This document shows positions 2 to 3,393 of a DNA stretch of 64,000 nt, in pieces. Each line of letters opens with the position of its first letter. Position 1 is the stretch's first letter. The translations under genes were made by a program, and so were the position numbers. The DNA is from Magnetospirillum gryphiswaldense MSR-1 v2 (GTDB taxonomy: Bacteria > Pseudomonadota > Alphaproteobacteria > Rhodospirillales > Magnetospirillaceae): assembly GCF_000513295.1 (NCBI RefSeq), contig NC_023065.1, positions 3,332,501 through 3,396,500 on the forward strand, read 5' to 3'. The notes below the pieces were generated by a model, which saw only the letters and a list, made by a program, of their open reading frames with translations, made no database searches and was not told the origin of the DNA.

Positions 2-967
2 CATGGCCTGTTGTTGCCGTTTGACGGCGGCTCTGTGTTTTATGCCCGCGATGATGCCTTCAGCGAAGGTGAAGTCGCCATGTTGGAGCGGCTGACCCAG
101 CTGGTCGGCTTGTCGCTGCGGGCGCTGACGCCCAAGCGGGTCGCCTGGCCCAAGCCGCGTGGACGCAAGGGCTGGGCCATGATGGCGGCAGGGGTGCTGG
201 TGGCCCTGTTTCCGGTGACCAGTTCGGTGCTGGCACCGGCGGAAAGCGTCGCCGCCCATCCGGTTTTGATCCGCGCGCCGCTGGAAGGGGTGATCGGTCG
301 CATGGCGGTCAGACCCAATGATGCGGTGACCGAGGGACAGGTGTTGTTCGAACTTGATTCCACCACCCTGACCGGTCGCCTGGATGTGGCCCGGCAAAGT
401 CTGGCGACGGCCGAAGCCGAGTACCGCCAAACCGCCCAGGCCATGGTGTTCGATGCCAAGGCCAAGACCCAGGCGGCCATCCTGGCCGGCAAGGCCGAGG
501 AGAAGGCCGCCGAGGTCCGTCTGTTGGAAAGCCAGTTGGCACGCATCCAGGTCAAGGCGCCGAAGGCGGGCATCGCCGTCTTCGATGATGTCGCCGACTG
601 GATCGGACGTCCCGTAATCCTGGGCGAAAAGGTGATGGCGGTGGCCGACGAAACCGATACCGAGGTGGAAGCCTGGGTGGCGGTGGCCGATGTGGGGGAA
701 GTGCGTCCCGGCGGGCCGCTGACCCTGTTTCTCAACACCAATCCACTGTCACCGGTGAAGGCCCGCGTCCGTTCCGTCGCCTATGAGGCAGCGGCGCGGC
801 CCGATGCCAGCATCGCCCACCGTATCCGTGCCACCTTGGCCGAGGCCGAGGACAAGCCGCGGCTGGGGTTGAAGGGTACCGCCCGCATCGACGGCGATAC
901 CGTGCCGCTGATCTGGTGGGCCTTCCGTCGCCCGCTGGCCACCATTCGACAGTTTATCGGTTTTTGA
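2..967 (+). CDS. HlyD-family periplasmic adaptor with GAF-like remnant (5' truncated by window edge)
   Basis: The frame is open to the left edge, so the real start lies outside; 321 residues are visible. The first ~40 residues look like the end of a GAF domain. They are followed by one transmembrane helix (about residues 58-75) and a HlyD/membrane-fusion core: a biotinyl-lipoyl half-motif (LIRAPLEGVIGRM), an alpha-helical hairpin rich in Ala/Glu, the second lipoyl half (IQVKAPKAGIAVF) and a beta-barrel. Family members bridge an inner-membrane pump and an outer-membrane channel. The stop is 3 bp before the M50 gene, so the two are co-transcribed and probably form one envelope complex. The GAF part is inferred from a fragment; the HlyD call is firm, the substrate unknown. 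Confidence 0.85.
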   Translation, partial: HGLLLPFDGGSVFYARDDAFSEGEVAMLERLTQLVGLSLRALTPKRVAWPKPRGRKGWAMMAAGVLVALFPVTSSVLAPAESVAAHPVLIRAPLEGVIGRMAVRPNDAVTEGQVLFELDSTTLTGRLDVARQSLATAEAEYRQTAQAMVFDAKAKTQAAILAGKAEEKAAEVRLLESQLARIQVKAPKAGIAVFDDVADWIGRPVILGEKVMAVADETDTEVEAWVAVADVGEVRPGGPLTLFLNTNPLSPVKARVRSVAYEAAARPDASIAHRIRATLAEAEDKPRLGLKGTARIDGDTVPLIWWAFRRPLATIRQFIGF

Positions 968-970
968 TCC

Positions 971-3070
971 ATGGATGCGGCGGCCCTGCCCCTGCTGCGC
1001 GAAGAATTGGCGGTTTATCCTGGTCCGGTGGGCCGTGATGGCGCCCCCAGCTGGACCTTGCACGACCCCTTGTCCAACCGGTTTTTCCGTATCGGCTGGC
1101 CTGCCTTCGAGATTCTCAGCCGCTGGCACCTGGGTGAACCAGCGGCCATCCGTACCGCCATCGAGACCGATACGGTGCTGGAGGTGGACGAGGACGATAT
1201 CCTGGGCGTGGCCGAGTTCCTGGCCCGCTCTCAGTTGCTGAAGGCGGACAGCCCTGGGGCGGTGGATCGGCTGCTTTCCATCCACCAGTCCGGCAAATCG
1301 TCGTGGCTGACTTGGCTGCTGCACCATTACCTGTTCTTCCGGGTGCCGCTGGTGCGGCCCGATGCCTGGCTGGGGCGGACCTTGCCCTGGGTGAGGTGGC
1401 TGGGATCGCGCGGTTTCCGTTTGGCCACACTCTTGGCGTTATTGGTCGGATTGCTGCTGATCGGGCGGCAATGGCAGAGCTTCACCGCCACCTTTGTCGA
1501 TCACTTTTCCATCACCGGACTGGCTGCTTTCGGCATCGCCTTGGGATTGGCCAAAATCTGCCACGAATTGGGCCATGCCTATACCGCCAAAGCCTTCGGC
1601 TGCCGGGTGCCGACCATGGGGGTGGCCTTTCTGGTGCTGTGGCCGATGCTTTACACCGACGTCAACGAAGCGTGGAAGCTGAACGCCCGCCGCCAGCGGC
1701 TTTTGGTGGGCGGTGCCGGCATCCTGGCCGAGTTGACCATCGCCGCCTGGGCCAGTCTGGCCTGGGGTCTGCTGCCTGACGGTACGGCCCGGTCCATGGC
1801 TTTCACCCTGGCAGCAACCACCTGGATCTCGTCGCTGGCCATCAACCTGTCGCCGTTCATGCGCTTTGACGGCTATTTCCTGGCCATGGACACGCTGGAT
1901 CAACCCAACCTGCATCCGCGCTCTTTTGCCCTGGCCCGCTGGCACCTGCGCGAAACCCTGTTCGGCCTGGGCGAACCGATGCCCGAACATTTGCCGCCCC
2001 GCACTCATCTGGGCATGATCGTGTTCGCCTGGGGGGTGTGGCTGTACCGGCTGATTTTGTTCCTGGGCATCGCTGTGCTGGTCTATCATTTTTTCATCAA
2101 GCTGGTGGGGATCATCCTGTTCATGGTGGAAATCGGCTGGTTCGTGGTCAAACCGGTGTGGGCCGAAATCCGGGAATGGAAAAAACGGCTGCCGGCCATC
2201 CGCGCCGGTCGTCGGGTGCGTTGGCCTTTGGCCGTTCTGCTGGGGGGCTTGTTGCTGCTGGTGGTGCCGTGGAACGGCAAGGTCACCGCGCCGGCCCTGC
2301 TGAAAGCCCAAGAATACAGCCTGATCTATGTGCCGTTCGGCGCGGTATTGCGCGAGGTGACGGTCAAGGATGGCGACCGGGTCGAAGCCGGAGCGGTACT
2401 GGCCCGCCTGGACAATCCCGATGCCGAACACCGGCGCCAACAATTGGACAGCCGCGTCGCCGCCTTGCGCTATGAGCTGTCGGCGACGGGCATGGATTCC
2501 GATTTCCGCGCCCGCAGCCAATCCATCGCCGAGGAATTACGCACCGCCCAGGCCGAACGCGCCGCCCTCGCCAATGAACAGGACCGGTTGGAACTGCTTG
2601 CCCCCATGGACGGTATCGTCACCGATTCGTCGCCTTTGGTGCAGCCGGGCCAATGGATCAATCAACGTGAACCCTTGCTGGGCCTGCGCCAGGGCGGTGT
2701 GCTGGAAGCCTATGTGGCGGAAGAGGACGTGCCGCGCCTGCGGGTGGGGGCCAGCGCCTATTTCATCCCCGATGGCCGTGATGCCGGCATCGACGCCACC
2801 ATCACCGCCATCGACCGCGTTGCCGTCACCGCCCTGACCGAACCCAGTCTGGCTGTACCTTATGGTGGTACCATTCCCGCCCGATTCGATCATAATAATC
2901 TGGTGCCCGATGTTGCCGTCTATCGGTTGCGGCTGAAGCCGGTGGATGATCGGGTGGTGCCACCGGTACCGTTGCGCGGCCAAGTGCGCATGGACGGTGA
3001 TTACCGCTCGCCCCTGGGCCATGGCTTGCGCGCCATCGCCGCCGTATTGCTGCGGGAATGGGGCTTGTGA
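971..3070 (+). CDS. M50 (site-2-protease-like) membrane protein with N-terminal PqqD-like and C-terminal HlyD-like domains
   Basis: 699 aa. Residues ~15-95 resemble a PqqD/RRE-type peptide-binding domain. Several transmembrane helices follow, with the M50 zinc motif HELGH (His198, Glu199, His202) and a downstream FDGYF with Asp300 as likely third ligand. After more helices (to ~435) comes a HlyD-like periplasmic part with a lipoyl half-domain (VKDGDRVEAGAVLARLDNP), a short coiled coil and the second half (LLAPMDGIVTDSSPLVQPG). This architecture is known as putative peptide zinc metalloprotease/HlyD hybrids that sit beside HlyD adaptors. The start is ATG directly after the preceding stop. Whether it cleaves a peptide or only acts in transport cannot be told from sequence. 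Confidence 0.85.
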   Translation: MDAAALPLLREELAVYPGPVGRDGAPSWTLHDPLSNRFFRIGWPAFEILSRWHLGEPAAIRTAIETDTVLEVDEDDILGVAEFLARSQLLKADSPGAVDRLLSIHQSGKSSWLTWLLHHYLFFRVPLVRPDAWLGRTLPWVRWLGSRGFRLATLLALLVGLLLIGRQWQSFTATFVDHFSITGLAAFGIALGLAKICHELGHAYTAKAFGCRVPTMGVAFLVLWPMLYTDVNEAWKLNARRQRLLVGGAGILAELTIAAWASLAWGLLPDGTARSMAFTLAATTWISSLAINLSPFMRFDGYFLAMDTLDQPNLHPRSFALARWHLRETLFGLGEPMPEHLPPRTHLGMIVFAWGVWLYRLILFLGIAVLVYHFFIKLVGIILFMVEIGWFVVKPVWAEIREWKKRLPAIRAGRRVRWPLAVLLGGLLLLVVPWNGKVTAPALLKAQEYSLIYVPFGAVLREVTVKDGDRVEAGAVLARLDNPDAEHRRQQLDSRVAALRYELSATGMDSDFRARSQSIAEELRTAQAERAALANEQDRLELLAPMDGIVTDSSPLVQPGQWINQREPLLGLRQGGVLEAYVAEEDVPRLRVGASAYFIPDGRDAGIDATITAIDRVAVTALTEPSLAVPYGGTIPARFDHNNLVPDVAVYRLRLKPVDDRVVPPVPLRGQVRMDGDYRSPLGHGLRAIAAVLLREWGL

Positions 3071-3084
3071 CAAGGAGAAAACCC

Positions 3085-3393
3085 ATGCTGAAACATAGCA
3101 TTGTGATCGTGATGGCCTTGCTGCTGCTGGGGGCCGAAGCCGGCTTGACGGCGGAGACCAAGGGCAGCGACAGTGCCGATATTTCCATCCGTTCGGCGCG
3201 GGTCGAGACGGTGCGGGCGCGGCTGGCCACGGTGTCGTCGCCCAGCGCCTCGGCCACCATGCTGGACGCCGATGATCTGCTGCGCCAGTTGAAGGCGGCA
3301 CCCGCCGACAAGCGCGCGGCCCTGGCGGCACAACTGGATGCGGCCTTGACCCGGGCCGAGCTGGAAATCGACATGGCCAACCGGCCCAAGTAA
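3085..3393 (+). CDS. small secreted protein of the M50-HlyD operon, unknown function
   Basis: 102 aa. The start is the ATG preceded by an AAGGAG site at 3072-3077, 14 bp after the M50 stop. The first ~27 residues are a Sec-type signal peptide (MLKHSIVIVMALLLLGAEAG, then LTA). The mature part is charged and Ala-rich with a predicted helical C-terminus (LRQLKAAPADKRAALAAQLD). There is no lipobox and no cysteine. Position and spacing make it the third gene of the operon, so it may be a periplasmic partner or substrate of the M50/HlyD pair. I do not recognise a family. Confidence 0.7.
   Translation: MLKHSIVIVMALLLLGAEAGLTAETKGSDSADISIRSARVETVRARLATVSSPSASATMLDADDLLRQLKAAPADKRAALAAQLDAALTRAELEIDMANRPK

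Follow-up and report, generated by a model that had tools for sequence, protein, structure and literature searches.

The stretch of DNA analysed here, hereafter the window, consists of 64,000 nucleotides (bases 3332501-3396500) of the 4.37-Mb single-contig genome of Magnetospirillum gryphiswaldense MSR-1, and its left end carries three tightly packed genes on the + strand, the first of which is cut by the window edge (Table 1). They code for an adaptor of the HlyD type, for a protein of 699 amino acids (aa) in which a PqqD-like front, an M50 site-2 protease and an HlyD region are predicted to be fused (the M50-HlyD protein), and for a small protein. A note made earlier from the letters of the window (the original prediction) had described this packed arrangement, and a check of the open reading frames confirmed all three genes with their positions and strand. 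Only the end of a conserved gene set falls within the window; the rest sits upstream, in a stretch designated L009 (window coordinates are L009 coordinates minus 13000). Extending the sequence in that direction, as the original prediction had advised, located a TolC-type gene and a further, small HlyD adaptor together with the gene of a giant protein. We suggest, with a probability of roughly 0.7, that the set constitutes a dedicated export and processing system for N-terminally tagged giant surface proteins, built from HlyD and TolC parts and without an ATP-binding cassette (ABC) transporter of its own.

Table 1. Features of the gene set in the window and in the upstream stretch L009
Feature	Coordinates	Strand	Basis or remark
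Giant gene, 1346 aa	L009:4838-8878		upstream of window
TolC-type gene	L009:10365-11975		upstream of window
Small HlyD adaptor	within L009:11846-12691		upstream of window
GAF-HlyD adaptor	2..967 (3' part); full gene, 420 aa, L009:12705-13967	+	
PqqD-like / M50 site-2 protease / HlyD fusion (predicted), 699 aa	971..3070	+	Pfam, NCBIfam, AlphaFold
Predicted PqqD-like (RRE-like) domain, residues 14-86	1010..1228	+	hhalign, model topology
HELGH zinc motif (His198, Glu199, His202)	1562..1576	+	alignment of relatives
Asp300, second M50 motif RFDGY	1868..1870	+	alignment of relatives
HlyD/lipoyl adaptor region, residues ~435-620	2273..2830	+	Pfam, Foldseek
Small protein, 111 aa, hydrophobic start	3058..3393	+	homologues behind M50 gene

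Results

The protease and adaptor parts of the M50-HlyD protein are both recognized by Pfam (Peptidase_M50, E 4e-8; HlyD_3, E 6e-12, at residues 542-620). As to membership of the M50 family, the HExxH motif and the Asp of the second motif are both present, and the four active residues named in the original prediction (His198, Glu199, His202 and Asp300) are unchanged in 18 of 18 and in 32 of 32 aligned relatives. The best matches of the M50 part among curated NCBIfam models are daptide_HExxH (E 5e-45) and YydH/LiaK (E 1e-8), both below cut-off. By Foldseek the C-terminal part resembles MacA, EmrA and AcrA (E down to ~1e-13), which together with the Pfam match bears out the predicted HlyD back. 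The PqqD-like N-terminal domain is supported by comparison, though a plain Pfam scan fails to find it: in the AlphaFold model (mean predicted local distance difference test, pLDDT, 87) residues 14-86 run strand-strand-strand-helix-helix-helix, and hhalign matched the front to a PqqD-family profile at 66% for the subfamily of the window and at 91% for a sister subfamily, compared with 0.1-0.3% in six control comparisons using three unrelated regions. The profile was made from the 19 PqqD-family proteins, out of 29 matches, that had a clear frame. Some relatives in the sister subfamily are annotated 'PqqD family' by NCBI. Among the matches listed, the closest named ones to the window's protein come from Paramagnetospirillum (67% identity) and Magnetospirillum (66%).

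The adaptor had been taken to carry the remnant of an N-terminal sensor domain. This is ruled out, since the gene is complete (420 aa) and begins approximately 295 bases upstream of the window; over its full length it matches HlyD_3 (E 1.3e-14) and HlyD_D23 (E 1.3e-8) in Pfam. The GAF domain proposed for it was not found by Pfam in the window's copy and is present in 7 of 26 relatives (best E 6.6e-12; 3 of the 26 are members of the sister subfamily). Between the giant gene and the TolC-type gene lies a gap of about 1.5 kb (L009:8879-10364), in which the only frame, of 373 aa on the reverse strand, is of doubtful reality.

The upstream giant carries MALEPRLMFDGAA near its start, followed by a DUF4347 domain (E 1e-48) and by immunoglobulin (Ig)-like repeats. 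Its tag, ALEPRxMFDGAA, is a variant of the LEPR-XLL tag; in general the tag often has basic residues first and then reads roughly L-x-M-A-L-E-P-R-x-M-F-D-G-A-A. The patterns in our scripts were written by hand and require E-x-R (mostly L-E-x-R) and in some steps also D, so that the invariance of these letters in the tag alignment is by construction; the MEPR and IEPR forms and the tag of locus L052 were missed by early patterns and caught by eye or by a wider scan. In hydrophobicity the tag bears little resemblance to a Sec signal peptide: the best 12-residue hydrophobic window in the tag region has a median of 0.86 (46 sequences, one at 2.0 or more), compared with 2.35 for the N-termini of TolC-type (OEP) proteins (74 sequences, 60 at 2.0 or more) and 2.32 for those of the adaptors (82 sequences, 62 at 2.0 or more).

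All nine DUF4347 genes in the window's genome are tagged. Seven of them lie no more than ~12 kb from a complete M50-HlyD gene or a truncated copy; the other two adjoin a TolC-type gene, and no M50-HlyD gene was found in the stretch read. Since nine possible substrates stand against five machines (the complete M50-HlyD copies in the genome), some tagged giants appear to be served in trans.

The relation between tag and M50-HlyD protein was analysed in 299 genomes of the phylum, with per-genome counts drawn from genome rows and tallies and given here as both / first only / second only / neither. For a 27-residue tag profile (E <= 1e-3) and subfamily 1 of the M50-HlyD proteins (E <= 1e-80) the counts are 70/1/4/224 (p 3e-62), and the lone genome with only the tag is 57% complete. 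By hand count the 70 genomes with both span 26 families. In 12 hand-picked genera of mixed status, 79 of 83 genomes agree, and none of 20,000 within-genus shuffles reached the observed overlap. At a tag threshold of E <= 0.05 the counts become 72/14/2/211, the 13 extra tag matches without M50-HlyD being about the number expected by chance, and for either tag form against either M50-HlyD subfamily they are 81/3/3/212. The curated LEPR-XLL model NF012209 (cut-off 17 bits) matches in 50 of the 299 genomes; in the window's genome two tags pass it at E <= 0.01, while nine match our own profile. In total, a partnership between the tag and the machine is strongly supported.

DUF4347 was initially a second candidate for the constant mark of the substrate (67/18/7/207 against subfamily 1). 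We dropped it in favour of the tag, which accounts for most of the exceptions: 13 of the 14 genomes that have DUF4347 and neither M50-HlyD subfamily are without the tag, the tagged one being 57% complete. In one of the 13 tagless genomes (G096) DUF4347 itself matches only below cut-off. The DUF4347 proteins seen in machine-less genomes mostly begin directly with the domain, and two (L216, L223) have an apparent ordinary signal peptide. M50-HlyD (E <= 1e-40) occurs without DUF4347 in 13 genomes, 12 of which, all except G203, are tagged (our tag profile at E <= 1e-3, or NF012209), and at L095, L139, L143, L148 and other loci the tag is present without a DUF4347 match above 60 bits in a local profile search.

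A scan of named genomes gave, among the matches listed, 80 named loci (more exist), which by title belong to Alpha-, Beta- and Gammaproteobacteria, Desulfobacterota-type organisms, Nitrospirales and a few others. The M50-HlyD frame is present in all 80 and an adjoining GAF-HlyD adaptor in 76; a TolC-type (OEP) gene was found in 49 and the small adaptor in 53, many loci being cut by contig or locus ends. The gene order is the same in independently annotated records. A linked long protein with the tag is present in 22 loci. A long neighbouring frame was seen in 59, of which 37 are without the tag, and 30 of these 37 frames start less than 200 bases from the locus edge. A whole-genome search covered 37 genomes, namely those of 32 of the 37 tagless loci (L130, L149, L184, L204 and L207 were left out) and five hand-picked ones; 35 of them have the tag at E <= 1e-3, and 36 have it at 0.05. 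In 34 of the 35 genomes the distance from the last in-frame stop to the tag is 21-83 codons, and the tagged frame is open to the end of the piece read in all 35. Two Limnohabitans genomes (L363, G375; L366, G383) have tagged open frames of 17,576 and 16,083 residues, respectively.

Subfamily 2 of the M50-HlyD proteins goes with the LEPR-XLL form of the tag (e.g. LEPRLLLSAD): in the ten genomes with only this subfamily, LEPR-XLL is present in ten and the FDGA-type tag in none. Clusters of this subfamily often include a protein of 638-674 aa that is assigned to SecA by Pfam (nine of ten scanned match SecA_DEAD at E 9.5e-85 to 1e-103, and the tenth, from L115, at 9e-18) and that the records annotate as SecA, DEAD/DEAH helicase, prepilin peptidase or hypothetical protein. 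The tally of a second SecA match against subfamily 2 over the 299 genomes is 33/3/3/260; the window's genome has one SecA match. Two proteins recorded as 'prepilin peptidase' (L334:23071-25095 and L337:22219-24135) are SecA by Pfam (E 8.5e-99 and 1e-103), and in four loci of subfamily 2 (L331, L335, L336 and L337) the GAF-HlyD adaptor is directly preceded by a small DUF3467 gene.

The small protein has no match in Pfam or NCBIfam. Homologues lie directly behind the M50 gene in three of the five complete copies in the genome (the window, L012 and L013). Of the 80 named loci, 76 yielded none; the four that have one, L129, L130 (with an overlapping frame), L132 and L133, all come from close relatives. 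In 74 loci the sequence extends at least 500 bases past the M50 gene, and only five of these have any small frame on the same strand there that begins with a hydrophobic segment, two of the five being members of the window's small family. Judged by this distribution, the small protein is a local addition confined to close relatives and not a core part. The expectation that the three genes be neighbours in other genomes thus holds for adaptor and M50 gene but fails for the small gene. For the same reason we set aside the earlier idea that the small protein is the substrate; the near-constant partner is the tagged giant.

Discussion

The gene set, the presence and position of the tag, its near-perfect co-occurrence with the M50-HlyD protein, the conserved active site and the SecA-like gene of subfamily 2 are direct observations. 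Combining them, we suggest that (i) the N-terminal tag acts as the export signal of the giant, (ii) the PqqD-like domain would bind the tag, by analogy with the binding of leaders of ribosomally synthesized and post-translationally modified peptides (RiPPs) by PqqD/RRE domains, (iii) the M50 domain, with its conserved active site, may cut in or beside the tag during translocation, and (iv) the HlyD part, the GAF-HlyD adaptor and the small adaptor would together bridge the inner membrane to the TolC-type channel, as their families imply. No ABC pump is encoded with the set. As one branch has a SecA-like motor, passage through the inner membrane is probably driven by SecA, i.e. by the dedicated SecA-like protein in subfamily 2 and by the housekeeping SecA in the branch of the window. 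The outline of the original prediction, a leader-recognition and membrane-proteolysis module joined to an exporter, is retained in this proposal, with PqqD-like, site-2-protease and HlyD parts in one protein and TolC upstream; its RiPP frame is not, as what almost always accompanies the set is a giant Ig/adhesin-like protein that bears a LEPR-type tag at its N-terminus.

DUF4347, the next domain in many substrates, may be caspase-like and may cut itself after export. In the structural model its core is formed by blocks with pLDDT 81-98 over residues 81-210, and the tag region has a pLDDT of ~45. Foldseek returned a single match under 1e-3 (9qpe_G, the Hcp3-Tce1 complex, E 3e-4, a type VI effector complex of P. 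aeruginosa), followed by caspases, CED-3 and legumain at E ~0.004-0.013 amid unrelated folds. Given that His142 and Cys185 are unchanged in 11 of 11 sequences and that caspases are among these weak fold matches, a caspase-like protease is plausible.

Several observations weigh against a tag-directed export system. Co-occurrence shows partnership and not export. A plain Pfam scan called PqqD in 1 of 32 members (E 0.2), and there is no PqqD or M50 entry among the 50 Foldseek matches listed, all of which are adaptor or pump proteins. In the window's branch the set comes without a linked SecA gene, and the SecA-like gene is present in only five of seven subfamily-2 plasmid loci examined; it was not seen in Thalassospira marina and in a Rhizobium record, the latter incompletely annotated. 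The partnership has exceptions on both sides: M50-HlyD occurs without a detected tag in G002, G129 and G203, the tag occurs without M50-HlyD in G189, G212 and G279, a weak tag match (E 0.007) was found in G171, which is without M50-HlyD, and machine-bearing genomes also encode untagged DUF4347 proteins (L025, L027, L220 and L227). A 2,956-aa neighbour of an M50 gene (L201:4438-13305) is untagged and has an ordinary signal peptide, and the set on the M. gryphiswaldense plasmid pMSR-1 (L327) adjoins a 493-aa ELWxxDGT-repeat protein in which no tag was found; we are undecided between a counter-example and a shortened substrate. Lastly, when 57 of the 74 subfamily-1 genomes were searched with the LssB model, an ABC protein matched it (E <= 1e-60) in 56, and in 32 the match was over cut-off.

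This count bears directly on an alternative in which the giants leave by type I secretion through an ABC transporter encoded elsewhere, with the role of the M50-HlyD protein limited to trimming the N-terminus or assisting. The HlyD and TolC parts of the set do resemble those of type I systems. We nevertheless regard this alternative as unlikely. Whereas an HlyD-type adaptor and a TolC-type protein are present, a linked ABC pump is not: an ABC-like gene was flagged in the same-strand run of 2 of the 80 loci, and neither is convincing: inspection of the N-terminus by eye suggests that one is a non-transporter ATPase, and the other is a transporter approximately 4 kb away. Moreover, 25 of the 57 genomes, that of the window included, have no LapB/LssB-type ABC protein over cut-off. 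Type I secretion signals are classically C-terminal, whereas the tag is N-terminal. We also considered whether the BapP-type adhesins (PMC12153261) and the MRP adhesins of Pectobacterium (PMC6963963) represent the same system and rejected both, which the cited passages describe as type I-secreted.

A slightly less probable alternative is that the giant is exported by another route and that the cluster governs its retention on or release from the surface, with M50 and DUF4347 cutting it free. LapG cuts LapA to release it, and two protease-like modules, the M50 domain and possibly a caspase-like DUF4347, would here act near the N-terminus. This scenario leaves unexplained why a TolC channel and HlyD adaptors accompany the protease and why a SecA-like ATPase is linked in subfamily 2, and we consider it improbable. 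Finally, a RiPP-type system, in which the small secreted protein would be a precursor that is bound by the PqqD-like front, cut by M50 and exported via HlyD/TolC, would fit the RRE/PqqD-like leader-binding domain (detected by profile-profile comparison and model topology, not by Pfam scan), the sub-cut-off matches to the RiPP proteases daptide_HExxH and LiaK and the real small family right behind the M50 gene in close relatives, but is very improbable in view of the rarity of that family, the scarcity of any small hydrophobic-start frame in its place and the tagged giant as near-constant partner. The annotated neighbours in four records include no modifying enzyme; no search aimed at very short peptides was made.

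The proposed export and processing system for tagged giants shares traits with several known systems. Type I secretion systems for giant adhesins, such as LapBCE and SiiE, likewise have giant Ig/cadherin-like substrates encoded next to HlyD adaptor and TolC genes; here, in contrast, there is no ABC gene and instead an M50-PqqD-HlyD fusion, an N-terminal tag and further HlyD adaptors. The M50 proteases of daptide and of YydH/LiaK RiPP systems appear to belong to a related M50 subgroup (NCBIfam, sub-cut-off), whereas in the set M50 is fused to HlyD and the partner has ~750 to 17,500 aa rather than being a short peptide. Accessory SecA systems (SecA2/SecY2) resemble subfamily 2 in having an extra SecA-like motor, which here, unlike in those systems, is of 638-674 aa, has no SecA_SW match by Pfam and lies beside M50-HlyD and HlyD genes. 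For planctomycetes, the relevant passages of one study describe an N-terminal export motif, RRLxxExLExRxLLA (PF07595), on 8 of the 10 longest proteins of Tuwongella immobilis (PMC8567305). Like LEPR-XLL (NF012209), it is a short N-terminal L-E-x-R-x-L-L tag on very long surface proteins; the passages concerned name no exporter for either (PMC8567305, PMC10868602), and the link to M50-HlyD proposed here would provide a candidate.

A search of the open-access literature, with subscription journals and bioRxiv outside its scope, found no description of an export machine for the tag, and the machine appears to be undescribed. We class the set as categorically new because its inner-membrane component and its signal both differ from those of the secretion systems that we know of; a cautious reader may see a variant of an HlyD/TolC exporter instead. 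A more far-reaching idea, which we advance tentatively and with less than even confidence, is that of a separate type of secretion system, in which PqqD-M50-HlyD would at once receive the signal, act as its peptidase and form the inner-membrane end of an HlyD/TolC conduit, SecA would drive transport (a dedicated one in one branch), proteins of up to ~17,500 residues would be handled and the orphan planctomycete motif LExLExRxLLA would belong to this system as its signal.

The N-terminal tag is present on some of the longest proteins of bacteria, and linking it to one machine provides a testable export route. It would also add a probable protein exporter without an ABC pump of its own and explain the purpose of the M50-PqqD-HlyD fusion. 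The set is present in Cupriavidus metallidurans CH34, where a single stretch (L339) holds both an M50-HlyD match and a frame of 3,750 aa with the tag LEPRLLYDAAA, and in Azospirillum brasilense (L338), with a DUF4347 giant, seen without its start, TolC, an adaptor, HlyD and M50-HlyD in one run, which makes knockouts feasible.

Copies and hosts of the gene set

A near-identical M50-HlyD gene is present in 24 of 5,426 complete Escherichia coli genomes, in 22 of them over at least 80% of its length, and 21 of the 25 places at which it occurs are on plasmids. In the E. coli record examined it lies beside a tagged 4,459-aa DUF4347 protein.

Within the window's genome the gene set occurs twice in near-identical form over several kb (L010 and L011, at 2.02 and 2.54 Mb), a likeness pointing to a recent duplication; the TolC proteins of the two copies differ slightly. 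A broken copy, in which the start of an adaptor is fused into a piece of the M50 protein (L014:8506-9177, the same as L088:506-1177), is found close to a tagged giant of 2,907 aa.

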